Below are positions 3,149 to 31,500 of a stretch of 33,573 bases of DNA, piece after piece; positions within the stretch are counted from its first letter, which is position 1; each line of letters starts with the position of its first letter. The DNA lies in IMG/VR virus record IMGVR_UViG_3300022752_000230, positions 1 through 33,573 of that record. The stretch is one strand, 5' to 3'. A model generated the notes under the pieces. The model did not search any database. It was not told where the DNA came from and saw nothing but the letters and a program-made list of their open reading frames with translations. The position numbers and the translations under genes were made by a program. The DNA comes from a virus.

Positions 3149-3151
3149 ATA
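3144..3151 (+). promoter_or_regulatory. T4-type late promoter (TATAAATA) for gp25
   Basis: This is an exact match to the T4 late promoter box TATAAATA, which is read by the phage sigma-like factor gp55 with clamp help. It overlaps the stop codon at 3146-3148 and ends 37 nt before the gp25 ATG. By T4 spacing, transcription should start about six bases after the box. It would drive gp25, gp6 and the gp7-position gene, which have no other box between them. Confidence 0.75.
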
Positions 3152-3169
3152 AAAGTCGTAAGACTTTTA
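3150..3169 (+). terminator. Hairpin overlapping the late promoter upstream of gp25
   Basis: TAAAAGTC and GACTTTTA form a perfect 8-bp inverted repeat around a GTAA loop, followed by the T-rich AGTTTAGG. The first bases of the stem overlap the last bases of the TATAAATA box. A transcript starting after the box would contain only part of it, so it most likely acts on RNA coming from upstream as a weak terminator or processing site. The stem is AT-rich and the T-run is poor, so termination is not certain. Confidence 0.45.
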
Positions 3170-3188: not shown

Positions 3189-3596
3189 ATGGCTCTAGAA
3201 AAAAGAAGATATAGCGATTTAGATCTATCTTTCACTCCACATCCAGACACAGGCGATTTGATACCACTTAGAGGTGATAGGGCCATCGCAAGAGCTGTTC
3301 GACAAATTGTATCTACTAATTTTTATGAAAAGTTTTATAATCCATATTTCGGTGGAAATGTAATTTCTCAATTGTTTGAACAGTACGATTCACAGACAGA
3401 ACACATCATAAAAACTAAGATTCAAGAGGCCATTCGTGATTATGAACCTAGAGTTAAAATACAATCAATACAGGTTATGTCTCCACCATCAAAAAATCTG
3501 CTAAATCAAAATACTTTGGTGTTACAAATTCAGTTCTACATAGTTGGAGAAACCGAATCGAAGCAGATTACATTTTCACTAAAAAGGGTCCGATAA
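3189..3596 (+). CDS. gp25: gp25-like baseplate wedge protein
   Basis: gp25 is the core wedge protein that joins the gp6 ring to the first sheath ring and templates sheath assembly; relatives occur in type VI secretion systems (TssE) and contractile pyocins. The 135-residue length matches T4 gp25 (132). The signature EPR motif is present at residues 86-88 (DYEPRVKI), after the conserved NPYFGGNVISQLFE region at about 51-64. The gene has its own late promoter 37 nt upstream, a weak ribosome binding site, and its TAA directly abuts the ATG of gp6. Identification is secure. Confidence 0.93.
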   Translation: MALEKRRYSDLDLSFTPHPDTGDLIPLRGDRAIARAVRQIVSTNFYEKFYNPYFGGNVISQLFEQYDSQTEHIIKTKIQEAIRDYEPRVKIQSIQVMSPPSKNLLNQNTLVLQIQFYIVGETESKQITFSLKRVR

Positions 3597-5420
3597 ATGA
3601 CAATCAAAAAGTTCACTGAATTGGATTTTCAGCAGATTAAACAAAATCTCAAAGATTTTTTAAGAAATCAACCAGAGTTTCAGGATTACAATTTTGAAGG
3701 TTCTGGAATAAACTTGCTATTAGATGTTCTTGCATATAATACAGGTTACAACGCATTTTATTCAAATATGATTGCCAACGAGTCTTTTCTAGATACTGCC
3801 ATATTGAGAAATAATGTGATTTCAAGAGCTAAATCTTTGGGTTATATTCCAACTAGCATTAGGGCACCTTATGCAAAAATTAATATAACAGTTAAATTAC
3901 CTAGTTCGGACTTTTCACAATTCCCCGAGTATATAATAGTACCACTACATCACGAGTTTACCGCCAGATCTTCCAATCAACCAGTACAACTCTATACAGT
4001 TGATAGAGTTGTTCTTCCAAAAACAACGTTAGTTGGTGGCGTACAGCAATATTCCGGTGAGGTGAATATCTATCAAGGTAAAAAAATAACTCACAAATTT
4101 ACTGTAGATAATGAATTAAATTCAACTCAAAGATTCATTTTGCCAAATGCTAATATAGACAGTACAAAACTTTTTGTTACTATATTACAAAACTCAGGTG
4201 TTGCACAAGGAGACACTTGGACTTTAGCAAAGGATGTAACTGAAGTTGGTCCTAATGACAATGTTTACTTTCTACAAGAAGCAGATAATGAATTTTTGGA
4301 ACTCTACTTTGGTGACGGGTTTATAGGAAAAAAATTAATAGATGGCAACCAAATCTCTGCAACATATTTTGTAACTGACGGTCCATTATATCACGGATTG
4401 AATAAGTTTAACACTATCAGCTTGACTGCGCCAAGTAGCGTTACTATTCCACCACAGTACATATCAATAACCACACTAGAATCTTTGAGAAATGGTTCAG
4501 ATAAAGAAACTATAGAAAGTGTAAAATTTAAAGCACCATTATATTATGATACACAAGCTAGAGCAGTGACAAAATCCGATTACGAGACTTTACTAATTAA
4601 AGACTATCCGCAAATAGAACACGTTAGAGTATGGGGAGGTGAGGACAATTCACCACCAAAGTATGGTGTTGTTTTTGTTTCTGCCAAACCAAAGAATGGA
4701 TTGACCTTTAATACAATAGAAAAAGAATCTATTATTAATACAATTATTAGACCTAGAAATATGGTCGCTATTGAAGTTGAAATGGTAGATCCAGAGTATA
4801 TGAATATTGGCATAGAAACTACGGTTAGATTTGAAGGCAGAAAAAATAGCAAATCTTCTGGTCAAATAGAAAACTCCGTTAGAGAGTCGATAAATAAATT
4901 TGCGTCAGACAAGTTGAGTGGATTTGATACTACCTTTAGATATAGTGCGCTTTTGAGATATATCGATCAAGCCGATGATTCAATAACCAGTAATATCACT
5001 TCGGTCTACTTGAAATATGCCGTAACTCCACCATTTAATGTGGCAGTTCAATATAATTTTTCATTCCAATCTTCGCTGGATTTGGGTGATGTACTACATG
5101 ATATAAGAACAATAAAAAGTTCTGGATTTATATACAACGGTTTTGAAACATTTATAACCGACGATGGTAATGGAAAACTATTTGCGTACAGACTGTTCGG
5201 TTCAAATAAAATTATAGTAAATGACAACATAGGTTCCATAAATTATGAAACTGGAGCAATTCAAATATCTAACCTAATTATACAGGGATTGAGTGATGGT
5301 GGTAATAAACTATATTTCTATGCTACGCCATCGAATGGTGATTTTTTCGCAAGTAGAAATAGAATGTTATTAATTGAACAGACCGATGTAAAAGTTAAAG
5401 TTATTAATGAGAATAGATAA
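3597..5420 (+). CDS. gp6: gp6-like baseplate wedge protein (baseplate J family)
   Basis: gp6 dimers form the inner ring of the baseplate and drive its change from dome to star. The 607-residue product is close to T4 gp6 (660). The N-terminus carries the family signature at residues about 35-85 (NFEGSGINLLLDVLAYNTGYN, then ANESFLDTAILRNNVISRAK). Residues about 320-366 carry the second conserved block (QARAVTKSDYETLLIKDYP, then EHVRVWGGED). The C-terminal part is beta-rich. Translation is coupled: the ATG follows the gp25 stop directly, with AAAGGG at about 3583-3588 as ribosome binding site. The last base of its stop is the first base of the next ATG (TAATG). Confidence 0.93.
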   Translation: MTIKKFTELDFQQIKQNLKDFLRNQPEFQDYNFEGSGINLLLDVLAYNTGYNAFYSNMIANESFLDTAILRNNVISRAKSLGYIPTSIRAPYAKINITVKLPSSDFSQFPEYIIVPLHHEFTARSSNQPVQLYTVDRVVLPKTTLVGGVQQYSGEVNIYQGKKITHKFTVDNELNSTQRFILPNANIDSTKLFVTILQNSGVAQGDTWTLAKDVTEVGPNDNVYFLQEADNEFLELYFGDGFIGKKLIDGNQISATYFVTDGPLYHGLNKFNTISLTAPSSVTIPPQYISITTLESLRNGSDKETIESVKFKAPLYYDTQARAVTKSDYETLLIKDYPQIEHVRVWGGEDNSPPKYGVVFVSAKPKNGLTFNTIEKESIINTIIRPRNMVAIEVEMVDPEYMNIGIETTVRFEGRKNSKSSGQIENSVRESINKFASDKLSGFDTTFRYSALLRYIDQADDSITSNITSVYLKYAVTPPFNVAVQYNFSFQSSLDLGDVLHDIRTIKSSGFIYNGFETFITDDGNGKLFAYRLFGSNKIIVNDNIGSINYETGAIQISNLIIQGLSDGGNKLYFYATPSNGDFFASRNRMLLIEQTDVKVKVINENR

Positions 5421-8400
5421 TGTCACAATCTATAACATGCACTGGCATAAGTTCTGGATTTTCATCATCAAACCATGTGATGGTTGGTGTCGTTAAACCA
5501 TCCTCAATTTCGACAGCTTCTGTCGTTAGCTCACCAAAGGTTAATTTACAAAATTTAGTTCCTTCTTCAATTGCTTCCGGAGAAGTTCACGGTTCTCCTA
5601 CCGTCATAAAACAACCGAGACAAATTCAAAGCATAGCAAAAATAGTTAAGCATAGATTGCCACAATATGTTCAATCTGATTTTCCTAGATTTATAGATTT
5701 TCTAGAAAAATATTACGAATGGATGGAAATCAGAGGCAATGCTTTAGGATTAAGTAAAGATCTACCTAGATTGCAAGATCTTGACACAACTGAAGACCCA
5801 TTTTTACATTCACTTCAAAAAGAAGTGATGTCTAGATTTCCTAAAGAATTATACGTAGATCCTGCAAATCCAAACAATAGAGTTAAGATACAAAATGCCA
5901 TAAAAAACATTGTGCAATTTTATGGTGCAAAAGGAACAGAAAGAGCATACAAATATTTGTTTAGATTAATATTAGGTGCTGAAATTGATTTCTATTATCC
6001 TCGTGTGGATATGCTCCGACCATCTGATGGAAAATGGATTCAAAACTATTCTGTTAGAGTTGAGATGCCAACCAATTCGGCAGATACTCCATTTGCATTC
6101 ATCAATAAAAAAATAATTGGGCAAAATAGTCAAAGTTCCGCATTTGTTGAATATGCCATAAAACTTGAGATAGGTTTAAATGTAGTATACGAGTTATTTT
6201 TAAATAGAAGTTCAATAACGGGAGAATTCTATCCTGGCGAGACTCTATACTCCGATGAGGCTCCAAACGTTTTCGCAAATCCTGTAACTTGCGTAACTGG
6301 TTTTAAATTATTCGACAAAGGTTCAAACTATTCCATAGGAACTGAGATAGTCAGTAATTTTCAAAACTTTAATATTCAAGATTTTAAGGCCACTGTATCC
6401 ACGGTAAATACTTTAGGTAATGTAACAAAAGTTGATATTGTTTCTCCAGGGTTTAAAATACCACCAACAGCATTTAGTGAAGTAAAAATTGGTGAAAGAA
6501 CTTACAACAATATATTAGTTTACGAACCGGATGGTGATAATCAATTACACATAATTCCTCAAGTTGGTACAATAATAAAATATAAAGGATATTTCTTAAA
6601 TGATGATGGAAAATTAAGTGATGCAAAATTTATACAAGATAGTTTTTACTATCAACAATTTTCTTATGTAATCAAGGTTAGTGAATCTTTTGACTTTTAT
6701 GAATCTTTTGTTAAAGATTTAATTCATCCATCCGGTTTAAAATTATTTGGAAACTTTTTAAGTGAAAACTTTATTTCAAGTGGAGCGAAAGTACAAAATA
6801 ATTTACAGATTACTTGGCACAACGAAGTTGAGTATAATGATATTTCATTTAAACCGCTAGATGTAGAATTAAAATTAGAAGTCGATCCTAACATACAACC
6901 TGAACTCGATGAATATCAACTAGAAAGTCTAGTCAGATACAGAAATGGTGCATCATTAAACAGCATCGATAGATTTAAATTTACATATAAGCCAAATGGC
7001 GGAAATGATGAAGATAGATTGTTATATTCTGGCAATTCAAATTATTGGAAAACCGATTTTGCAAATTATCAAATAAAAGATTTCTTTGATATCATTGTTG
7101 GTGATTTTTGGATGAAACCTTGGTTAAGAACCAAGATACAACCAGAACCAATTTTAAAAGATCCTTTATGCGATACTGCATCACCCTTTCCTAGTGGATC
7201 GAAGAAGTTATTTACTATCAACATTTACACGCAAGAAATATTTGGAATTCCTTCAGTATTGAGTGGTGCAACATCGATTTTAACTTCATCTATAAATTCT
7301 AATGAACAGTTTGGTAGTGTCAATATAGATCTTGGTCTATCTCCGATAGTTTTGCCTCCCGAAGAAACTTTGTATACTTGGGGATATATTGCAAATGGAA
7401 CCCTACCAAGATTACAATCGACTCCAATAAATGAAGACAATTTAATACCATACTCAGATGTTATACTAAAAGGAGGATTTGGTAGTGGCGAATTGTTGAT
7501 GGCACTCAAGCAAGATGGACAACTATGGGAAGATAATATATTTGCCGGTTTAACATTTAATAGAGATTCAAATTTTGTCAAAATTACAGGCGTTCAGTAC
7601 GTTGGGGGAGGAAATTACGGAAATGCCGGAATTAAAGATGACGGAACATTGTGGCAATGGCCTCATTATGTTTGGTACGAACCTTCCACGCATACCGCAC
7701 CAACCTTATTGAATGCCGATACTGATTGGGTAAGTCTTGACAGCGGAATTAATCACTTTTTAGCACTAAAGTCTGATGGAACCTTGTGGTCGTGGGGTCG
7801 AAACCATGAAGGTCAGCTTGGTGATGGAACAACTGTAGATTCAATAACGCCAATTCAAGTAGGCACTGATACAGATTGGTCTTTTATAGCGGCAGGTGGA
7901 TATGCGTCATTTGCAATTAAAAATGATGGAACACTTTGGAGAATCGGAACGATCATAACAAAGGTTTTAATCGATCCTACTTGGTTTAAGTCATCTCACT
8001 ATGCGTGGGGTCAATTCATGAATGATTGGTCGATTAATTATGGAAATATTAATACTATAGGAACATTTCAATTTACCACTGCTATAGATATACCGACAAG
8101 TGGAACATATAACTTTCAATATGCTGCCGATAATCTCGGATCTTATAGCATAGCAGGACAGACTTGGACTTCTTCAAATAATTTCGGTTCAAGTTCAAAC
8201 ATATCTATCACTTTAACCGCCGGAACGCATGTTCTTGTAGCTTCTTATATCAATGAACCACATCCGAATCCCGACAATCCAAGTGGAATAGCAATAAAAA
8301 TAACCGACGAATCTAATAATGTAATTTGGACAACTCTTGACTATCTAAACGAACAACAAGGTTTTAATTGCATTAATGTCTCAACTTCAAGTGGACACCA

Positions 8401-11050
8401 TTTAGCTATAAAATCGAACGGAACTCTGTGGGCATGGGGAGATAACACCACAGGTCAATTAGGTGATGGTACTACAATTTCAAAAACTCAACCAATTCAA
8501 ATTGGCACCGATAGTGATTGGACGGAAATTGCTACAGGATTTTCATACGGTGCTGCATATTCATATGGGATAAAATCAGACAAGTCATTGTGGGGTTGGG
8601 GTTCGGGTGCTAGACTATTGAGCGATTCTCCTTCCACGAACATTAGCACAATACCCCAAAGGCTCACAACATATTTAAAATGGAATAGAATACAAACACA
8701 CGCATTTCAAAGTGGTGGAATTTTAGATGTAACATCACCTAAACCTATTTTTTGTAATGGTATAAGTACAGGAGAAGCATTCGGCTCTACCATACAACTA
8801 GATGTCGAACCCGTATTAAGTTCATATGGAGTAGGTTGGAACGCCAATGGCCAACTTGGAGTAACATCTGTTGGTGCGACTTCGATCACGATTGGAATAT
8901 CCTCCATTAGTGAATATTCTCAAGTTTCCGCCGGAGAACGAAATACACTATTCATCAAAATCGATGGAACACTTTGGTCATGTGGAAGAAACGTAGGAGC
9001 AATTGGTAATGGTAGTTTTGATGATGTTACCGTTGCACCAGCGATACAAATTGGAATCGGATATACTTGGAAAGCGGTCAGTTGCGGATATCAGTATGCT
9101 CTTGCAATTCGTGAGGACGGCACACTATGGGCTTGGGGACAAACTTACAATACCGGATCATTAGGAGATGGTACAAGCAATCCTAGTGCATCACCAATTC
9201 AGATCGGAACCGATACAGATTGGACAAAAATATTTGCCGGTGAATTTCACAACATGGCAATAAAATCCAATGGAACACTTTGGGGATGGGGATATAATGC
9301 TTACGGACTATTAGGCGATAATACTACTAGCAGTCGAAACGTTCCTACTCAGATCGGCAGCGACACAAATTGGGACAAGATAGCACTAGGAGATCGACAC
9401 ACATTAGGAATTAAAACTGACGGAACACTTTGGGGATGGGGATATAATGATAGCGGACAGGTTGGAGATGGAACAAGTGGTACTTCAAGATTAATACCAA
9501 CACAAATAGGAGTTGACACAGATTGGAAAACTGTTACGGCAGGTTACTTTCACAGCGTTGGACTAAAAACCGATGGAACACTTTGGTCGTGGGGATATGG
9601 AGCTAACGGCGGACTTGGACAAGGAAATACTACTACATATCTTTCTCCTACACAAATTGGAAGCGACACGGATTGGGAATATTTGGCACCGGAGTCAAGT
9701 GATCATCATCACGCAATAAAATTAGACGGAACCGTATACGCCTGGGGTGTAAATTCTAATTACCAATTAGGAGATGGCTCTTCAACTGGTCGATTGTCTC
9801 CCGTTCAAATTCCTACACCAGATAATATAGTGCACATTGCGAGTGGCGGATATCATACAATTTTCTTAGTCGATTCCAATGTTCCGTGGCAGGGTGTAAT
9901 TTCATCTGGTATTGAATCCGGAGAGGCCTTTGGACAAACTCAATTATTAGGTTCTAATGGTTTATTATACACTTGGGGTGATGCACGTTATGGTGTGCTC
10001 GGAAACGGTACATATCAAACTGATGCGCTAGATGCTGATGTATTGAGTCCTACCGTAATTAGTAGTGGGGTAAAATGGAAAGATATTTCCGTAGGTTCCC
10101 AACATATGATTGCGCTAAAATTGGACGGAACACTATGGTCTTGGGGATTAAACACCAACGGACAGTTAGGAAAAGGTACAACCACAAACAATAATGCAAA
10201 TGGAACTCCTGTACAAATAGGAAGTGATAGTAACTGGATTTCTGTCTCGGCAGGTGACAATCATAGTCTTGCAATTAAAAGCAATGGAACAATCTGGGCT
10301 TGGGGCGCCGGTTTATATGGTCGATTGGGAGTAGGAGATACAAGCGGAAGAACTTCACCTACTCAGATAGGAAGTGATAGTAACTGGATTTCTGTCTCGG
10401 CGGGTTCGTTACACACACTTGCAATCAAAGCTAATGGAACTCTTTGGGCATGGGGGAATAATGATAACGGTCGTCTTGGTGATAATAGTACCACTCAAAG
10501 AAATTCGCCAGTTCAGATAGGAGCGTCCACAAACTGGATGAAAGTTTCCGCAGGTAATTCACACACCGTAGCATTGAAAAGTGACGGAACGCTTTGGTCT
10601 TGGGGGTATAATGCTTACGGCCAACTCGGCGATGGTACAACAACACAAAAAACATCTCCGATACAAATAGGAACCGATACCAATTGGAAAGAAATATATG
10701 CAGGAAATCAATATACATTTGCAATTAAAAATAATGGAACATTATGGGCTTGGGGTTGGAATAACTACAGAGTGTTTGGAAACGGAACAACTACCAATTC
10801 GCTCGTTCCTATACAAATAGGTTCTGATACCAATTGGAGATTAATTGAAGGTAGAGATTTATCGACATTTGCTATTAAAACGGACGGCACACTATGGGCG
10901 GCTGGATACGACAATGGTGAGTCGCCTCTAGGACTGGGCGTACGTCAAAATACTAACGTATTAACATTTACTCAAATAGGAACCGATACTGATTGGTTAT
11001 TAATATCAGGCGGTGGTCAAGGACAGGCGGCCGCAATTAAACGTAATTAA
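5420..11050 (+). CDS. Baseplate wedge protein at the gp7 position fused to three RCC1-type beta-propellers
   Basis: The N-terminal third resembles the gp7-position wedge protein of T4-like cyanophages: residues about 73-210 hold HRLPQYVQSDFPRFIDFLEK, NIVQFYGAKGTERAYKYLF and EIDFYYPRVDMLRPSDGKW. From residue 651 to 1876 it is an array of RCC1-type repeats (pattern LWxWGxNxxGQLGDGT, PxQIGxDTDW, AGxxHxLAIKxDGT). I count 21, in three groups of seven: about 651-1108, 1132-1486 and 1515-1876. Each group is preceded by a short segment with an SGEAFG-like motif (residues 624-632, 1115-1122, 1498-1505). A PA14-like beta domain is inserted at about 852-981. The wedge role is inferred from the N-terminus and gene order. 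The propellers are probably surface decorations for binding a host or another virion part; nothing suggests the nucleotide-exchange role of eukaryotic RCC1. Start fixed by 1-base overlap with gp6. Confidence 0.85.
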   Translation: MSQSITCTGISSGFSSSNHVMVGVVKPSSISTASVVSSPKVNLQNLVPSSIASGEVHGSPTVIKQPRQIQSIAKIVKHRLPQYVQSDFPRFIDFLEKYYEWMEIRGNALGLSKDLPRLQDLDTTEDPFLHSLQKEVMSRFPKELYVDPANPNNRVKIQNAIKNIVQFYGAKGTERAYKYLFRLILGAEIDFYYPRVDMLRPSDGKWIQNYSVRVEMPTNSADTPFAFINKKIIGQNSQSSAFVEYAIKLEIGLNVVYELFLNRSSITGEFYPGETLYSDEAPNVFANPVTCVTGFKLFDKGSNYSIGTEIVSNFQNFNIQDFKATVSTVNTLGNVTKVDIVSPGFKIPPTAFSEVKIGERTYNNILVYEPDGDNQLHIIPQVGTIIKYKGYFLNDDGKLSDAKFIQDSFYYQQFSYVIKVSESFDFYESFVKDLIHPSGLKLFGNFLSENFISSGAKVQNNLQITWHNEVEYNDISFKPLDVELKLEVDPNIQPELDEYQLESLVRYRNGASLNSIDRFKFTYKPNGGNDEDRLLYSGNSNYWKTDFANYQIKDFFDIIVGDFWMKPWLRTKIQPEPILKDPLCDTASPFPSGSKKLFTINIYTQEIFGIPSVLSGATSILTSSINSNEQFGSVNIDLGLSPIVLPPEETLYTWGYIANGTLPRLQSTPINEDNLIPYSDVILKGGFGSGELLMALKQDGQLWEDNIFAGLTFNRDSNFVKITGVQYVGGGNYGNAGIKDDGTLWQWPHYVWYEPSTHTAPTLLNADTDWVSLDSGINHFLALKSDGTLWSWGRNHEGQLGDGTTVDSITPIQVGTDTDWSFIAAGGYASFAIKNDGTLWRIGTIITKVLIDPTWFKSSHYAWGQFMNDWSINYGNINTIGTFQFTTAIDIPTSGTYNFQYAADNLGSYSIAGQTWTSSNNFGSSSNISITLTAGTHVLVASYINEPHPNPDNPSGIAIKITDESNNVIWTTLDYLNEQQGFNCINVSTSSGHHLAIKSNGTLWAWGDNTTGQLGDGTTISKTQPIQIGTDSDWTEIATGFSYGAAYSYGIKSDKSLWGWGSGARLLSDSPSTNISTIPQRLTTYLKWNRIQTHAFQSGGILDVTSPKPIFCNGISTGEAFGSTIQLDVEPVLSSYGVGWNANGQLGVTSVGATSITIGISSISEYSQVSAGERNTLFIKIDGTLWSCGRNVGAIGNGSFDDVTVAPAIQIGIGYTWKAVSCGYQYALAIREDGTLWAWGQTYNTGSLGDGTSNPSASPIQIGTDTDWTKIFAGEFHNMAIKSNGTLWGWGYNAYGLLGDNTTSSRNVPTQIGSDTNWDKIALGDRHTLGIKTDGTLWGWGYNDSGQVGDGTSGTSRLIPTQIGVDTDWKTVTAGYFHSVGLKTDGTLWSWGYGANGGLGQGNTTTYLSPTQIGSDTDWEYLAPESSDHHHAIKLDGTVYAWGVNSNYQLGDGSSTGRLSPVQIPTPDNIVHIASGGYHTIFLVDSNVPWQGVISSGIESGEAFGQTQLLGSNGLLYTWGDARYGVLGNGTYQTDALDADVLSPTVISSGVKWKDISVGSQHMIALKLDGTLWSWGLNTNGQLGKGTTTNNNANGTPVQIGSDSNWISVSAGDNHSLAIKSNGTIWAWGAGLYGRLGVGDTSGRTSPTQIGSDSNWISVSAGSLHTLAIKANGTLWAWGNNDNGRLGDNSTTQRNSPVQIGASTNWMKVSAGNSHTVALKSDGTLWSWGYNAYGQLGDGTTTQKTSPIQIGTDTNWKEIYAGNQYTFAIKNNGTLWAWGWNNYRVFGNGTTTNSLVPIQIGSDTNWRLIEGRDLSTFAIKTDGTLWAAGYDNGESPLGLGVRQNTNVLTFTQIGTDTDWLLISGGGQGQAAAIKRN
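7973..8362 (+). other. PA14/GLEYA-like domain inserted in RCC1 blade 5
   Basis: Residues about 852-981 of the 5420 protein break the RCC1 rhythm between an LWRIG strand and an AIKSNGT strand. The insert has the look of a PA14-type jelly roll: a W-rich start, FQFTTAIDIPTSGTYNFQYA, AADNLGSYSIAGQTW, then SITLTAGTHVLVASYIN. Domains of this kind often bind sugars in adhesins. The insertion boundaries are clear to within a few residues; the family assignment is by pattern only and could be another beta sandwich. Confidence 0.5.
10217..10401 (+). repeat. Perfect 35-nt direct repeat, one propeller blade apart
   Basis: The 35 bases at 10217-10251 recur exactly at 10367-10401, 150 bases downstream. 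They encode the IGSDSNWISVSAG part of two adjacent blades (second and third repeats of propeller 3). Other blades in the array match at the protein level with many synonymous changes, so this pair reflects a recent blade duplication or local conversion. Confidence 0.85.
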
Positions 11051-11056
11051 ACAATA

Positions 11057-11063
11057 CTAAATA
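11057..11063 (+). promoter_or_regulatory. Late promoter-like box (CTAAATA) for gp8
   Basis: CTAAATA, in the context TACTAAATAATG, differs from the T4 late box mainly at the first positions; CTAAATA forms are described for T4-like cyanophages. It ends 31 nt before the gp8 ATG, in the same spacing class as the other late boxes here. The leader RNA would start near 11069. Confidence 0.55.
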
Positions 11064-11073
11064 ATGACATAAT

Positions 11074-11092
11074 AACATTTTAAGGAAATGTT
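11074..11092 (+). promoter_or_regulatory. Leader hairpin presenting the gp8 ribosome binding site in its loop
   Basis: AACATTT (11074-11080) and AAATGTT (11086-11092) form a perfect 7-bp stem around the loop TAAGG. The Shine-Dalgarno AAGGA (11082-11086) lies in the loop and the first base of the right arm. The ATG follows two bases after the stem. If the promoter box is right, the hairpin lies almost at the 5' end of the mRNA, where it could tune initiation or protect the end. The stem is AT-rich and its stability is unmeasured. Confidence 0.5.
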
Positions 11093-11094
11093 CG

Positions 11095-12747
11095 ATGGTT
11101 GCAATAATAACTAATAAATTTCGATTCATGCAGGCTCGCATATTTAAAGATGCGATAGAAGACTCTTCTGTAGGTGCAGATACGCATTATTTATTTGTAA
11201 GTAGACCACAACCGTGGAACACAGCAACCACCAACGCCGATTTAATACCCGATGTTCCGGAAGATACGCTATACAGTGAAAGAAGAATTTGGGACGGAAT
11301 GATGGGTCTCAAAAAAATTACACCTAATAATTCTTCTTTTGTTATCCCTAGATGGAATTGGGACGCAACAGGAAATACAGTTTATGTTGCATATTCTGAC
11401 CAAGATCCGCACATATTCGAGCATCCAACTTCCAGTGAAGTTACGAGCGGAAATGCCAATGGTTACACGCCAGGAAACATTTATGCAATGAATCAATATT
11501 TTCAAGTTTTTAAATGTTTGTCCAACAATGGCGGCGTTAAATCTACAATAGAACCCGTAACGGATGAAAGTAATCCTTTGCTAGTTATAAGTTTAGCTGA
11601 TGGTTATAGGTGGAAATATATGTACACCATACAAACTGGCGATGCATTAAAATATTTAACCGATCATTGGATGCCAGTCAAAACTCTAGAGTCTGACGAT
11701 GGTTCGGCACAATGGGATGTACAGCAAGGTGCTCAAAATAATGGAGTAATAGATTCCATTCAAGTCATCAATGCCGGAACACAATATAATAGAGTTTTAA
11801 ACACAACTACTGTGAGTAGTATAGGATTAGTGGGACCAAATCAATCCATTTCAACAACTAGCTCTTCTGCCGTTACCAACAATGGATGGTATGCAGGAGC
11901 TACTGTGTGGATAGTATCGGGGACCGGAGCAGGAAGTTCTTCCAAGGTTATAAGTTATCTAGGATCTACTAAAGAATTCGTTCTAGAATCTACATTATCT
12001 ATAGATTTAACTTCTCAATTTCAAGTTTTGCCTACAGTAAATATCACCGGCGATGGTACGGGTGCTAGAGCAAAGGCAAATGTAAATTTTTCATCACCAA
12101 ATGGAATAACATCGGTATCATTAATTAATGCAGGAACTGGTTATTCTTACGCAACCGCAACTGTTACCGGAGCAAATAGCGGAAGTAATTTGGCACAGGT
12201 CGTTGTTGTTTTACCACCAAGTCAGGGTCACGGTGCAGATCCTGTCGAAGAATTGGGCGGACACTATGTTATGCTCAATGTCGATTTAACTTACTCAGAA
12301 GGTTCTGGCGATTTTCCAATATCAAATGATTATAGACAAATTGGCATTATTAGAAATCCAGAAACATTCGGATCTTCTGGAACAATTTTTTCAGGGTCGA
12401 CAGCAAGTGCCAGTTCGAGACTCACTGTTACCTCGACATCAAGTACCTTTGCTCTTGATAGTATATTGGTAGAGCAAACGCCAGGGGTCGCACAGGGTTT
12501 CTTAATAGAGGTATTAGATAACGGTACTAATAAAGATTTAGTATTTGTCCAAATACCAGAAACTGGTTACGAAAACTTTAATGTAGGAAACTCGGTAATT
12601 TCTGGAAGTGCTTCTGCCACAATTAGCGCAATAGTGAATCCAGAAGTCCAAAAATATAGTGGCGACATAATTTATTTTGAAAATCGTAGACCTATTTTAA
12701 GATCGCCAGATCAAACTGAAACCATAAAAGTTATTATAGAATTTTAA
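11095..12747 (+). CDS. gp8: gp8-like baseplate wedge protein
   Basis: gp8 is a dimeric wedge protein on the outer part of the baseplate. The N-terminus (IITNKFRFMQARIFKDAIE, HYLFVSRPQPW, WDGMMGLKKI, FVIPRWNW) and the stretch ADGYRWKYMYTIQTGDALKYL near residue 190 match the gp8 family of T4-like cyanophages. So does the C-terminus (YSGDIIYFENRRPILRS, ending KVIIEF). At 550 residues it is longer than T4 gp8 (334). The extra length includes a beta insert at about 245-310 (VSGTGAGSSSKVISYLGSTK) and repeated VINAGTQY / LINAGTGY strands. It has its own promoter box and a good ribosome binding site (AAGGAA) in a hairpin loop. Confidence 0.87.
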   Translation: MVAIITNKFRFMQARIFKDAIEDSSVGADTHYLFVSRPQPWNTATTNADLIPDVPEDTLYSERRIWDGMMGLKKITPNNSSFVIPRWNWDATGNTVYVAYSDQDPHIFEHPTSSEVTSGNANGYTPGNIYAMNQYFQVFKCLSNNGGVKSTIEPVTDESNPLLVISLADGYRWKYMYTIQTGDALKYLTDHWMPVKTLESDDGSAQWDVQQGAQNNGVIDSIQVINAGTQYNRVLNTTTVSSIGLVGPNQSISTTSSSAVTNNGWYAGATVWIVSGTGAGSSSKVISYLGSTKEFVLESTLSIDLTSQFQVLPTVNITGDGTGARAKANVNFSSPNGITSVSLINAGTGYSYATATVTGANSGSNLAQVVVVLPPSQGHGADPVEELGGHYVMLNVDLTYSEGSGDFPISNDYRQIGIIRNPETFGSSGTIFSGSTASASSRLTVTSTSSTFALDSILVEQTPGVAQGFLIEVLDNGTNKDLVFVQIPETGYENFNVGNSVISGSASATISAIVNPEVQKYSGDIIYFENRRPILRSPDQTETIKVIIEF

Positions 12748-12822: not shown

Positions 12823-12829
12823 CTAAATA
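12823..12829 (+). promoter_or_regulatory. Late promoter-like box (CTAAATA) for the DUF4815 gene
   Basis: CTAAATA in the context CGACTAAATATAAC lies in the longest intergenic gap of the window and ends 31 nt before the ATG at 12861. No further box is seen until 25246, so it should serve 12861 through 25250. Confidence 0.55.
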
Positions 12830-24143: not shown

Positions 24144-25250
24144 ATGGCAAAGTATCTAGGTTCGGGAGCAGCATACGGAGTTTTTGAGAAACAAGTTATT
24201 TCTCCAGACGGTCTTACGACTGAATTTACACTAACATATCAAGTTGGACATTCATCTTCGATTTTAGTTATTAGTGATGGTGTCGTACAAGAACCAAACT
24301 TTTCATATGGTTTAATTGAAGGCGGAAGAAAAATTGCATTTTCATATCCTCCACTACTCGGCGAAAGAATTTATATTGTTTATTTGGGTAGAGAAATTTC
24401 TGTTCCCGCTGTTTCGGGAAATTATTGTTTACGAATACGATTAGAAGCGCCAACTTTGAATGGAAGTACAACAACATTCGATCTTTCTAGTTTAGGATTT
24501 TTACCTACTGATCTTGGACTATTAAGAGAAGAAGGTATGACGGTATTTTTAAATAAAATACCTTTACAGTTTGGAAGTGATTGGACCTTGAATGTTTCGC
24601 CAGATTTTAAAGTCGGAAATACAATCATATTCAATTCAGCACCAAGCGTGACCTCTATAGTTGACATTTATGTGCACGCAGTAGAAAGATCTGATATCAA
24701 AACAGTGGATACAGCTAGTATAACAGGAGATAAACTAGCAAATAATATAACCATAGGAAGTCCTTCAAATAAATGCGAAGCAATATATGTAAAAAATTTA
24801 GTTGCGGATAATCCTATAGTTTATATCAATTCTTCACAAATTGAGCTAAAAACACATTCAGGTTTTACACAATCCAGTCATCACATTTTAACTAATGCAG
24901 TAATGACTACCGATTCATCACCAACAATACTTTGGAACTTTGAATTGCCGAATGTTCCATCTGGTGTTGCAAATTCAGCAATTTGGTTTGAAGTTGATAT
25001 GGTAGGATTGAATGTAAGTGTTGATGAAAATTGTTGGATAAACATAAAGGGCGGTGCCAAGAGAAATGTAATTGCAACCTCTTTAGTTGGTATACAACAA
25101 AACATATTTGGTACGGACAGTTCTGATTATAATGCATTCGTACAAGTATCAGGTACTAATGTACAAGTTATGGTAGTTGGACATCCAACCAACACAGTAC
25201 ATTGGGCAGCTACAATTAGATATCAGGCAATCACTTCTGTCGCACTATAA
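24144..25250 (+). CDS. Fibre-like adhesin with two N-terminal adaptor repeats
   Basis: This 368-residue protein starts with MAKYLGSGAAYGVF, similar in style to the start of the collar fibre (MSYIGNAKSPLIFG). Two copies of the same fibre beta domain follow: ILVISDGVVQEPNFSYG with IAFSYPPLLGERIYIVYLG, and MTVFLNKIPLQFGSDW with IIFNSAPSVTSIVDIYV. After a helical SITGDKLANNITIG linker the C-terminal 150 residues form a beta sandwich (VMTTDSSPTILWNFELPNVP, VDMVGLNVSVDENCW) that resembles small C-terminal heads of tail fibres. It probably caps a fibre or acts as a second receptor-binding protein. The ATG is 3 bases after the previous stop, with no clear ribosome site, so coupling is likely. Confidence 0.75.
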   Translation: MAKYLGSGAAYGVFEKQVISPDGLTTEFTLTYQVGHSSSILVISDGVVQEPNFSYGLIEGGRKIAFSYPPLLGERIYIVYLGREISVPAVSGNYCLRIRLEAPTLNGSTTTFDLSSLGFLPTDLGLLREEGMTVFLNKIPLQFGSDWTLNVSPDFKVGNTIIFNSAPSVTSIVDIYVHAVERSDIKTVDTASITGDKLANNITIGSPSNKCEAIYVKNLVADNPIVYINSSQIELKTHSGFTQSSHHILTNAVMTTDSSPTILWNFELPNVPSGVANSAIWFEVDMVGLNVSVDENCWINIKGGAKRNVIATSLVGIQQNIFGTDSSDYNAFVQVSGTNVQVMVVGHPTNTVHWAATIRYQAITSVAL

Positions 25251-25259
25251 ATAGAAGTG
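25232..25259 (+). terminator. Inverted repeat spanning the end of the 24144 gene and the next late promoter
   Basis: CACTTCT (25232-25238) and AGAAGTG (25253-25259) are a perfect 7-bp inverted repeat. The loop contains the stop codon and most of the TATAAATA box. An alternative pairing of GCACT with AGTGC is also possible. There is no T-run. It can form only in RNA read through from upstream, so it may end or process that RNA while the box starts a new one. Confidence 0.4.
25246..25253 (+). promoter_or_regulatory. T4-type late promoter (TATAAATA) for the first S74 fibre
   Basis: This is an exact TATAAATA that includes the stop codon at 25248-25250. It ends 34 nt before the ATG at 25288. The ribosome binding site AGAGGG (25276-25281) lies downstream in the predicted leader. 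Confidence 0.75.
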
Positions 25260-25287
25260 CAAATAACATTGTAGCAGAGGGATTACT

Positions 25288-28200
25288 ATGTCCAGAAATA
25301 AAGGGATTAATAAACTTGTAGTTAGTGATGATACGACACCATCATTACAAGAATTGCCAGTTCTTGCCAGTGAAACGCTAGGTGTTTTCGTACATAGCAC
25401 AAACTCCACAATACCTTCAAAATTATTTCTATCGCAAGGTACGGCAACCCAAGCTAGTTTTTCCAGAATTGAATTTGATACAGATTCCGGATTAGGAATT
25501 TTTACCGATGTACCGTTTGTTTCTTCTCACGATGCCAGTATAAAGTTTAAAGCACGAGGAACTGACTATTGGAAAATAGAAGGGGTCAATGGTTCATCTG
25601 GCGATTTGTTACCTCTGATCAACAATCAATTAAAGATAGGACGCTCTGGCTTCAATCTAGCTGAAACATTTTCTAGAAAGATTACCTCAGATAGCACACT
25701 AGCTCTAGCAGCCGGCGGCGCAACAAAATGGAATCTAGATAGCGGAGGAAACTTAATACCTTCTACTGCCAATAGTCAAAATTTTGGAGCTACTAGTACT
25801 GCATTATCCCAGATTTTTGGAAATCAATTAAATTCTGGAACTGGACAAGCATTATATCTTGGTTCAAATGGCGGTGCTTATCAATGGCGCATAGCAAATG
25901 GAACAAATGCAGCATTCATACCAAATTCAACTTATGACATTGGTGCATCGGGAAGTAGGGTAGGAAAACTCTGGGGAACTGATATTGATATTACGGGAAC
26001 TATAAACTCAGGCGGATTTTCATCTTCTGGTGATGTCATCACAAATTCCATTAGAACAATAGGAACATCAGATAATCTTGTAATTAAAACTGGCACGGGA
26101 TTTGCGGAAAAGGTAAGAATAACATCGACTGGTAAAGTAGGCATAGGCACAACATCTCCGTATGCTAGTCTTGATGTTGCTAGTAGTCTTCAGATTGGAA
26201 ATAGTGCAACTTCTTCAAATAACTTTCATATAACTGCCGAATCTACCGGAGCGTTACAGTTTTGGAATGGTAATTATGGAACAGGTACTGAGCTAATGCG
26301 AATAACATCGGGAGGTAACGTTGGCATTGGAACATCAAGTCCGGTAACTGCATTAGATGTGGTCGGGACAACCACCATTGGAGGTGCTACTTCGGGATTC
26401 ATCCTCAATTTAGGAAGAGGCACCGCATTCGGTCGTCAGGGGTATTTGGCCGGGGATGGTACGAATATTGAATTCAATAACCAACAAAACGGCATCATGT
26501 ATTTCTCGACGAACAATGCCGAACGGATGCGAATTGCTGCGAACGGGAGTGTTGGCATTGGAACAACTAACCCCCTAGATCGGCTCGATGTTTCTAGTGG
26601 CGCAGGCACTTTCCGGACCCGCATTCGCAATACTACGGCAAACGAAGCATTTTTACTTTTCCAGAACACGACCACTGGGACGACCACGGGTGATGGGTTT
26701 TTATGCGGCATTGATGCCGGCGCCGCAGTCTACGTGTGGAATCACGAAAACAACGTCATGCTTTTCGGCACGAACAATACAGAGAGGATGCGAATTGCTG
26801 CGAACGGGAATGTTGGTATCGGAACTACAAATCCACTAACAAAATTACACATACGAGACACAGCGCCAATCGTGCGATTGGAGGATGCGGACACTGGTAG
26901 TTTTTCTACAATAAGTGCAGATTCAGGTGCAGGAAGTTTGTTTATTTCCGCCGACGAAGGAAATGCACAAAGCAACACTTTTATAGTTCTGAAAACCGAC
27001 AATATTAATAGGGCCACCATTGGCAGTACGGTGATGGATCTCACCACATCATTACAAGTGGCAGGAAGTGTTACATCCGCCAGTTTAATCGTTGATACAT
27101 CTTTAAATTCACTGGGTGCTGGCGAATCCTCTCTCATAGTATCGGGAAGCGGAAATAAAGAGAGGCTTGCCGCAAGACACTATGGAAATGGAGATCCTGG
27201 CTTTCTTGGTGAGCGATATATGGGTACGGTAGGAAGTCCTACGGCCGTAACAATTGATCAGTCTCTAGGGTTTTTTGGTGGTCGTGGTTACAACGGAACT
27301 GGACTGTCCAGTACGTCTGGACTTTTTGGTGTTCGTGCCGCCGAAACGTTCACTGCAATTGCACAGGGAACCTATTTAACGTTTGAAACAACGCCTATTG
27401 GATCGACCACCAGGCAGACACGAATGGTAATAAGTTCTAGTGGTAATGTGGGTATAGGTACGAATAATCCTTTATATACTTTACATGTTAATGGCAATGC
27501 TTACTGTGGTAGTGGATTACATGTAGTAGGAGCACCCCAAACTAATAGTCAAGGTGCACATATTGGTTGGAATTTAGATGACGGCGGCGGTGGCACTTGG
27601 TTCATGAACAATAGAGGAACAGGTGGAGGTGGTTTTGTATTTGTAAATAAGTTGGGCAGCGACTTGCCAAATCAAAACATTATAGCACAAATTGGATCGA
27701 CTGCGGCTCAATTACCCCAAGCACTCGATCTAGGCAAGATAATACCAGCGAACGGAACTGAAATAAATACTTATATCGATTTCAATTCACGTCCTACAGA
27801 TCTTGTTCCAGATTATTCCGCAAGAATTATCAGTCTAGGTGCTAATATCAATAGTGATTATCCTTCTGAAAATTTTATGTTAATAGCTAGAACGTCTTAT
27901 ACTAATCAGTATAGATGGCCTGGTATTAGATTGAGACTAGAAACTCGTAATAATAATACAAACCGTTGGGATGATCGAACAATAGTCTTTCACAGTAGCA
28001 CCAGTAATACACAGTTACCTAGACCATTTTTTGCACCAGCAACAGATAGTGTAGGACTAATAGATCTCGGCACACAATCACAATATTGGGGAAATTTATA
28101 CGTAGATAATATCTTCTACAGAAATAGTTCAGGTTCTTTTGTGGGAATTGGATCGTCGGTTATTGATGATCCAACAACCGATTACATAGATCCAAATCCT

Positions 28201-28550: not shown

Positions 28551-31500
28551 ATGCCTAGAACAGAAATTAAATCTTCTACAATTGCAAATTTTGAAGTCAA
28601 AAGAGAAGACATAAACACATCCGAAAGTGGAAGTGCTGTTATAACAAAAATTATAGCAGGTTCAGGCATAACAATAACTAATTCAACTGGCGCAGATCAA
28701 GGTACCGGCGATGTAACAATATCATCTGGCGGCGGAACAATAAACGATCTCAATGGTCAAAGTGGTGCATCACAAACTTTTGCAACAGGAACATCTGGCA
28801 CAAATTTCAACATCTCATCCGCATCAAACGTACATACATTTAATATACCAGACGCATCATCTACTAATCGAGGTTTAATAACAACTGGCGCACAAACAAT
28901 TGCAGGTTCAAAAACTTTTAGTAGCAATATTATAGGTTCAATAACCGGAAGTGCAAGTACACTAACAAATGCAAGAAATATCACAGCAACTGGTGATGCA
29001 TCTTGGTCGGTTTCTTTTGATGGTTCAGCAAATGCATCATCAGCATTAACCTTAGCAACTACTGGCGTTTCTTCGGGAACATACAAGTCCGTTACCGTTG
29101 ACACAAAAGGACGTGTCACCGCAGGAACAAATCCAACCACACTAAGCGGGTATGGAATTACGGATGCTATTCCATTATCACAAAAAGGCGCAGTAAATGG
29201 TGTTGCGACTTTAGATTCTTCTGGTTTTGTAACTTCTTCGCAATTGCCAAGTTATGTCGATGATGTCGTTGAGTATGCAAATTTGGCAGGATTTCCTGTA
29301 ACTGGCGAAACTTCAAAAATTTACGTTGCTTTAGATACAAATAAAATTTATAGATGGTCAGGTTCGGCTTATATAGAAATTAGTCCTGTCGCAGGAAATG
29401 CAGATACGGCGACTAAGTTGGCCACTGCAAGAAGTATTTCTGCAACTGGTGATGCAACTTGGTCAGTTTCTTTTGATGGTTCTGCAAACGTATCATCTGC
29501 ATTGACTTTAGCGACAACCGGAGTTTCCGCAGGAACATATAAATCCGTTACAGTTGATACTAAAGGTCGTATTACGGCTGGAACAAATCCTACAACTTTA
29601 AGTGGTTATGGCATTACAGATGCACTATCAAATAGTAGTACATCAACACAAAGTGGATATTTCGGTGATATCTTTTTGTATGACGATTCAACGCCTTCTC
29701 ATTACTTGGGAATCACAAATAGCGCAAACTTGACGGCAGCTAGAACGTTAAGTTTAAACGTAAATGATGCAAATAGAATTATCAGTTTATCTGGTGATTT
29801 AACAGTATCTTCGGCGGCCACAATTTCTGGAACCAATACAGGCGATCAAACAATCACATTAACTGGCGATGTGACTGGTTCGGGAACTGGTTCTTTTGCG
29901 ACAACACTTGCGAATTCGGGAGTTACTGCTGGAACATATACAAAATTAACTGTAGATGTAAAAGGTAGAGCAACAGTAGGAGCCACATTATCGGCTTCTG
30001 ATATTCCATCACTCGATGCATCAAAAATAACATCAGGACAATTAGGTATAGCAAACGGCGGCACAGGACAATCAACTGCACAGACCGCCATAAATGCCTT
30101 AACTCAAGTTTCTTCCGCAACAAATGAATACGTATTAACAAAAGATACTACTACTGGAAATGCCATATGGAAACCAGTTTCTGTCAGTGGTTTTATTAGT
30201 TCTATAAACGGATTAAGTGATAGTTCTCAAACATTTGCGACAGGAACATCAGGAACAGATTTTAATATTTCATCCGCTAGTGGTACGCACACATTTAATA
30301 TTCCTAGTGCTTCAGCTACGAACAGAGGATTAATAACAACTGGCACACAAACAATTGCCGGCGTAAAAACTTTTAGTGATGCAATAGCGATTGGTACAAC
30401 TCCTTCAGCAACTGGTCATATTAGATTACCGAATAATCAATCGATCAGTTCAAGAAACGCCGCCAATTCAGCGGACGTTGAAATAGTTAAATTGGACTCA
30501 AATAATAGAGTTTCGCTTGGTGCAGTTTTGCAGATGAATAACCGAGAAATCATCGGTGTCAATTCAATAGAACAAAACACATCAACAAATTGGAAATTAG
30601 ACAATTCAGGAAATGCTTACTTTGCAGGAAATGTTAGCATAGGTACAACAACATTTGGCCCTAAGTTAGACATAAATGGCAGCCTCTTGAGAATAGCTAA
30701 CGGATCAACGGGTTATGGATATTCTCAGTTTGGTAATTCAGCAACGACAACACAAAACTGGCATATAGGTTCAGAAGGTGATGGAACTTTTAGAATTTAT
30801 AATACAAACTTTGGTAGCGGAGTAGAAAGATTAAGAATAACATCAGGTGGTGATGTCGGAATAGGAACTTTAACTCCAGGTACAAAATTAGATGTATCTG
30901 GATCTATAAGATCGTCAAGTCAATTAATTTCAACCGTAGCAACTGGAACGGCTCCACTTTCAGTTACCTCTACGACTAAAGTATCAAATTTAAATGCAGA
31001 TTTATTAGATGACCAGACTGGTTCTTATTACTTAGATTATAATAATTTTACAAATACTCCAACCATTGGCAACGGAACTTTAACTCTTGCAGTTTCTGGA
31101 ACGGGACTTAGTGGTTCTGCATCATTTACCGCCAATCAAACCGGAGCAACAACTTTTACTATTACTTCAAATGCTACAAGTGCAAATATCGGAAGTACCA
31201 TTGTAGCTAGAGATGCTTCTGGCAATTTTAGTGCTGGAACTATAACAGCGAATTTAACAGGACTTGCAAGCGGTGCAACCACTGCTACGTATTTGAATAC
31301 TGCCGCTTCATCCAGCACAGCGGATAATATAACCACTAGAGTCAATTCTGGATTTTGGGAAAGTAATAGCGCAACGACCGGCGAAGGGTGGCCAGAAACA
31401 ACAAATAATTGGTACCACTTACTGTGTAGTACACATAGTAATGCCGGAAATTATTACTCAATGCAATTTGCTGGTAGTTTTTTTGATAGCGATGCATTGT

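Follow-up and report, generated by a model that had tools for sequence, protein, structure and literature searches.

The gp8 baseplate wedge gene of this virus record (33,573 bases; the whole stretch analysed is referred to here as the window) is probably expressed from an ordinary T4-type late promoter and ribosome-binding site, and the hairpin that can be drawn around that site is best regarded as incidental and lineage-restricted. CTAAATA at 11057 would start an mRNA near 11069, the 26-base leader would present a standard TAAGGA 8 bases ahead of the gp8 ATG, and the hairpin would be a by-product of the A+T-rich arms flanking this Shine-Dalgarno sequence. The stem would be too weak for control of initiation, with ribosomes opening it while binding, and we infer that it has no effect on initiation. 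The gene, the box, the Shine-Dalgarno sequence and the hairpin itself are all demonstrably present (Table 1).

Table 1 Features at the start of gp8 in the window.
Feature	Position	Strand	Basis or details
Gene in gp7 position, 1876 aa, RCC1 repeats	5420..11050	+	ORF and domain matches
T4-type (Aeh1-like) late promoter box CTAAATA	11057..11063	+	Exact match, 38 bases before gp8 ATG
Putative late transcript start (+1)	11069	+	12 bases past box start, Aeh1 spacing
Hairpin 5′ arm AACATTT	11074..11080	+	Sequence, fold
Shine-Dalgarno TAAGGA	11081..11086	+	Drawn loop 11081-11085; 11086 belongs to the 3′ arm
Hairpin 3′ arm AAATGTT	11086..11092	+	Sequence, fold
gp8 baseplate wedge gene	11095..12747	+	550 aa; phrog_438 E 5.6e-106 (full length), PF09215 Phage-Gp8 E 4.3e-18

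Gene 8 and its late promoter

The phrog_438 and PF09215 matches agree with the sequence-only reading, which had called the gene following the hairpin gp8; on these matches it is the gp8 of a T4-like phage, and is taken to be a structural gene. It is preceded, in order, by a gp25-like gene (PF04965), gp6 (phrog_219) and a long gene occupying the gp7 position. The latter ends 44 bases upstream of the gp8 start codon, so that run-on transcripts from it would also carry the gp8 leader. In T4, gene 8 overlaps the 3′ end of gene 7.

The product of the gp7-position gene matches PF25390 (E 8.6e-166), with 13 RCC1 stretches and a short match to a baseplate-wedge family (PF23786). RCC1 repeats are also present in a matching 1873-codon frame of a relative with a 156.9-kb genome, G001 (L097-L104; ~34.3-38.4 kb and 107.9-110.9 kb), and in three further consecutive frames of the same genome (514-519 codons each). 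No RCC1 repeats were found in the 48.5-kb record of the relative at 70% protein identity nor in the records of L008, L010 and L033.

CTAAATA occurs twice in the window (11057-11063 and 12823-12829), more rarely than expected by chance (shuffle mean 8.74, both strands), and in each case an ATG (11095 and 12861) lies exactly 38 bases downstream of the first base of the box. According to PMC1524935, the putative late promoter of the T4-like Aeromonas phage Aeh1 is CTAAATA, from -12, while that of T4 is TATAAATA at -13 to -6. Both boxes of the window resemble the Aeh1 late promoters described there in sequence, in lying ahead of late genes and in standing 12 bases before the start of transcription, the +1 being putative in each case. 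Aeh1 spacing places the gp8 +1 near 11069 and hence the hairpin at +6 to +24, in keeping with the earlier suggestion that the hairpin begins about five bases from the mRNA 5′ end. These matches support a candidate Aeh1-type late promoter before gp8, with the hairpin at the start of the predicted mRNA. Unlike the Aeh1 pattern, the window also has TATAAATA boxes before the genes at 3189 and 25288 and a CATAAATA box before the gene at 28551. The late box of the gene at 25288 lies inside an inverted repeat (GCACT...AGTGC; 25242-25260).

Among 63 distinct 60-nt gp8 leaders from related loci (same-species loci included), 38 contain NTAAATA at -60 to -22, although some of these matches may be due to chance, the DNA being A+T-rich.

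Sequence, predicted fold and chance expectation of the hairpin

At 11074-11092 the two arms form a perfect 7-bp Watson-Crick stem around the 5-base loop TAAGG, and CG separates the end of the hairpin (11092) from the gp8 ATG (11095), exactly as had been read from the letters. TAAGGA, which we take to be the Shine-Dalgarno sequence from its match to the consensus, ends 8 bases before the ATG. The description of TAAGG as a loop is right for the sequence as drawn but not for the best fold, in which an eighth, wobble pair (U11081-G11085) reduces the predicted loop to AAG: A11082, A11083 and G11084 remain unpaired, but G11085 and A11086 are for the most part in base pairs. With this pair in place, the Shine-Dalgarno sequence would not be freely displayed.

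The stem contains a single G-C pair. Predicted folding energies of the 19-mer are -3.0 kcal/mol at 37 °C, with a z of -5.45 relative to its own shuffles, and -5.9 kcal/mol at 20 °C. Placed in a 50-base context, the hairpin has a z of -1.43, with 21 of 200 shuffles folding equally well or better. When the 31-nt leader was dinucleotide-shuffled 20,000 times, hairpins of at least 7 bp arose in 400 shuffles (with GG in the loop in 86), and with the Shine-Dalgarno sequence held fixed the chance of a stem this long is 0.2% for the window gp8 leader. The excess over chance is modest. As 16 leaders in the window and 218 in G001 (simple ORF rule) were equally open to inspection, a single such case is unsurprising.

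No Rfam match was found at E up to 1 in 10900-11300, and assignment to a described RNA family was rejected on that basis. The whole window has 30 perfect hairpins of at least 7 bp (loops 3-8), compared with a mean of 16.5 (range 11-21) in 10 shuffles, a surplus to which repeat arrays or local composition may contribute.

Conservation among relatives

The relatives compared were the best 80 of at least 593 confirmed gp8 relatives, plus a few from other searches. From 82 loci tried, 67 were kept, after removal of 12 with a low-scoring start when compared to the window N-terminus and three without a start; together with the window these gave 68 leaders, 60 of them distinct at 45 nt, with a recognisable Shine-Dalgarno sequence in 49 of the 60 and none in 11. 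L009, L010 and three named phages were left out of this set, the leaders of the named phages being viewed and folded only. A scan of genome contigs with gp8 returned no relative, and a search of a phage collection for closely similar DNA returned no match.

Five readable same-species contigs (L002-L006) have a leader identical to that of the window letter for letter, hairpin included, while differing from it at 93-105 positions in 2153 columns. L003-L006 are 0-5 bases apart and 69-73 from L002, so that the five contigs represent two lineages beside the window, three in all, and with so few lineages the conservation argument for function is weakened. A scan that required the box, its ten next bases and the start codon but set no condition on the hairpin recovered these five contigs again and yielded no sequence with a changed stem.

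Identity of the leader in six of six sequences from three lineages speaks for a lineage-specific cis element, in which the weak hairpin tunes gp8 initiation, for example by lowering it at low temperature, and for which the leader is conserved; such an element has only a small chance of being the explanation. Against it, the same-species alignment has no variable column throughout 11027-11150, a block of 124 bases covering the end of the gp7-position gene, the promoter, the ribosome site and the first 18 gp8 codons. This block is far wider than the hairpin, and the identity is therefore not attributable to the stem.

L019 (70% protein identity), the sole intermediate relative among the matches listed, has a box and a Shine-Dalgarno sequence with changed arms. 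In the alignment, five of the seven column pairs are standard (three G-U, one changed on both sides), two are broken and four bases are inserted; this pair count is no better than that of shuffles (267/500), yet higher than with the partner slid. The 23-nt L019 segment has an MFE of 0, and forced pairing would cost +12.8 kcal/mol. Judged from this one relative, the retained pairs do not amount to the compensatory change that marks a conserved RNA element. Stem conservation thus holds in L002-L006 and breaks down in L019, where pairing is lost, an outcome in close relatives that the sequence-only reading had itself named as telling against its proposal.

A Shine-Dalgarno sequence in the loop of a perfect stem of at least 6 bp was seen in one of the 60 distinct gp8 leaders (that of the window; set drawn from the best 80 of at least 593), the chance expectation over the 49 Shine-Dalgarno leaders being 0.74 for stems of at least 6 bp and 0.21 for those of at least 7 bp. 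The hairpin is absent from the examined relatives outside the species.

Other leaders of the same phage group

G001 leaders were defined by a simple ORF rule on eight separate pieces, genes across piece borders being missing. Four of its 218 leaders, gp8 included, have the Shine-Dalgarno sequence in the loop of a stem of at least 6 bp. The pattern used for late-box-like leaders was loose and some matches are due to chance; among the 22 leaders so identified, two have the Shine-Dalgarno sequence in such a loop (gp8 included), and in four, including those of gp8 and gp25, the 45 nt upstream of the start codon contain a perfect 6-bp hairpin of any kind. A loop-borne Shine-Dalgarno sequence is not a rule in G001.

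These counts also bear on the idea that a 5′-terminal stem, about five bases from the transcript end, shields late mRNA from decay. The position relative to the putative +1 would suit such a role, but a stem of -3.0 kcal/mol that has a single G-C pair is weak, and most G001 late-box-like leaders are without one of this kind, making protection from decay very unlikely.

In the window, the gp25 late leader contains a perfect 8-bp hairpin (TAAAAGTC-GTAA-GACTTTTA; 3150-3169), which shares the final bases of its late box. It is broken in nine of ten relatives' contigs, by one shared variant with uncompensated changes, and is kept in G001. Its loss without compensation indicates that perfect hairpins in such leaders can be incidental; perfect short stems arise or vanish in these A+T-rich leaders. 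The gp8 leaders of L051, L067 and L081 have a hairpin of the GTGAA...TTCAC type (6-7 bp) between a late-box-like sequence and the Shine-Dalgarno sequence, which looks to lie within the coding end of the upstream gene.

Accessibility of the ribosome-binding site

Opening TAAGGA in the late transcript is predicted to cost 1.69 kcal/mol at 37 °C and 2.65 kcal/mol at 20 °C. Extending the transcript upstream by 100 or 200 bases, as in read-through RNA, gives 1.91 and 1.68 kcal/mol, respectively, at 37 °C, and 2.57-2.64 kcal/mol at 20 °C. Over a broader stretch, from -15 to -7, the cost at 37 °C is 2.96 kcal/mol, compared to a median of 1.95 kcal/mol for 63 gp8 leaders, ranking 12th highest (11 of the 62 others cost more). 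The value for the window leader is not outside those of other gp8 leaders but falls in their upper fifth, a rank that weakens the claim that its opening cost is unremarkable. L019 has a cost of 3.84 despite lacking the hairpin, its leader folding otherwise.

The near doubling of hairpin stability at 20 °C would fit an element that tunes initiation by temperature, but an opening cost within the range of other gp8 leaders argues against one. A recently evolved RNA switch at the species level, with a hairpin that responds to temperature and displays the Shine-Dalgarno sequence setting the gp8 dose, is very unlikely. In the MS2 coat data tabulated in PMC9894550, hairpins of -6.6 and -7.9 kcal/mol retain 80-100% of expression and one of -9.5 kcal/mol gives 20%; these values, from E. 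coli at 42 °C, are a rough guide only.

Comparison with known leader systems

The inhibitory hairpins of T4 gene e, soc and I-TevI, as described in PMC3014915, resemble that of gp8 in being initiation-region structures at genes with their own late promoter, but differ in that the Shine-Dalgarno sequence or AUG is held in the helix. Late transcripts of T4 gene e are without the 5′ arm, whereas the gp8 hairpin lies entirely downstream of the putative start. A switch of the gene e type was rejected, the arm at 11074-11080 being downstream of the putative +1 (11069) and the opening cost being alike in late and read-through RNA.

Precedents for a lineage-specific cis element are T4 genes 25 and 38, for which PMC3014915 describes hairpins in the initiation region that aid initiation, the gene 25 one being restricted to close T-even phages. 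In these genes the stem is placed after the Shine-Dalgarno sequence and before the AUG, bringing together two elements otherwise 22-27 bases apart. At gp8 no such shortening takes place, as the gap of 8 bases is already normal and the Shine-Dalgarno sequence is inside the hairpin, and a split site of the gene 25/38 type was rejected.

Repression of translation was also considered, with the phage's RegA, a CsrA-like protein of the host or one of the phage's structural proteins binding the hairpin or its GGA loop as an operator. G001 encodes a RegA homologue (PF01818, E 1.2e-42), but the T4 RegA sites described in PMC3014915 are without apparent structure and the repressed genes named there are early and middle ones. 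When compared with the features of RegA operators (an unstructured A+U-rich site, the AUG and a 5′ poly(A) tract), the gp8 leader is A+U-rich with an AUG, and is predicted to be structured. Like CsrA/RsmA sites, it has an ANGGA-like core at a loop over the Shine-Dalgarno sequence, AAGGA fitting the ANGGA part of the CsrA-type ANGGAN loop (site definition from PMC7652899). However, the register is wrong for an ANGGAN hexaloop, which would have one closing pair (U11081-A11088) with U11080-U11089 unpaired, and the GGA is partly paired, its last A lying in a pair of the predicted fold. With this register, and with no csrA found in the two phage records searched (G001 and the 48.5-kb G002), a CsrA-type site was rejected; the site is also not kept in L019. 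An operator at gp8 is very unlikely.

Implications

The sequence-only reading had proposed that a loop-borne Shine-Dalgarno sequence can favour initiation or serve as an operator. The weak fold, an opening cost within the gp8 range, the loss of pairing in L019 and the absence of such a loop from all 59 other distinct leaders (from the best 80 of at least 593) leave a functional reading unsupported. Points against an incidental hairpin are the same-species identity, the low chance of so long a stem with the Shine-Dalgarno sequence fixed, the z of the 19-mer, the upper-fifth opening cost and the five of seven pairs in L019. No title on a loop-borne Shine-Dalgarno sequence at a phage gene 8 was seen in the literature covered, which takes in few of the subscription journals.

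If the gp8 start is ordinary, as is probable, the hairpin matters little, and the window would represent a T4-like phage that has a standard ribosome site before gene 8 and late promoters of the Aeh1 type. Were the stem to act, it would illustrate how a few bases can tune the dosage of a baseplate part inside a single phage species.
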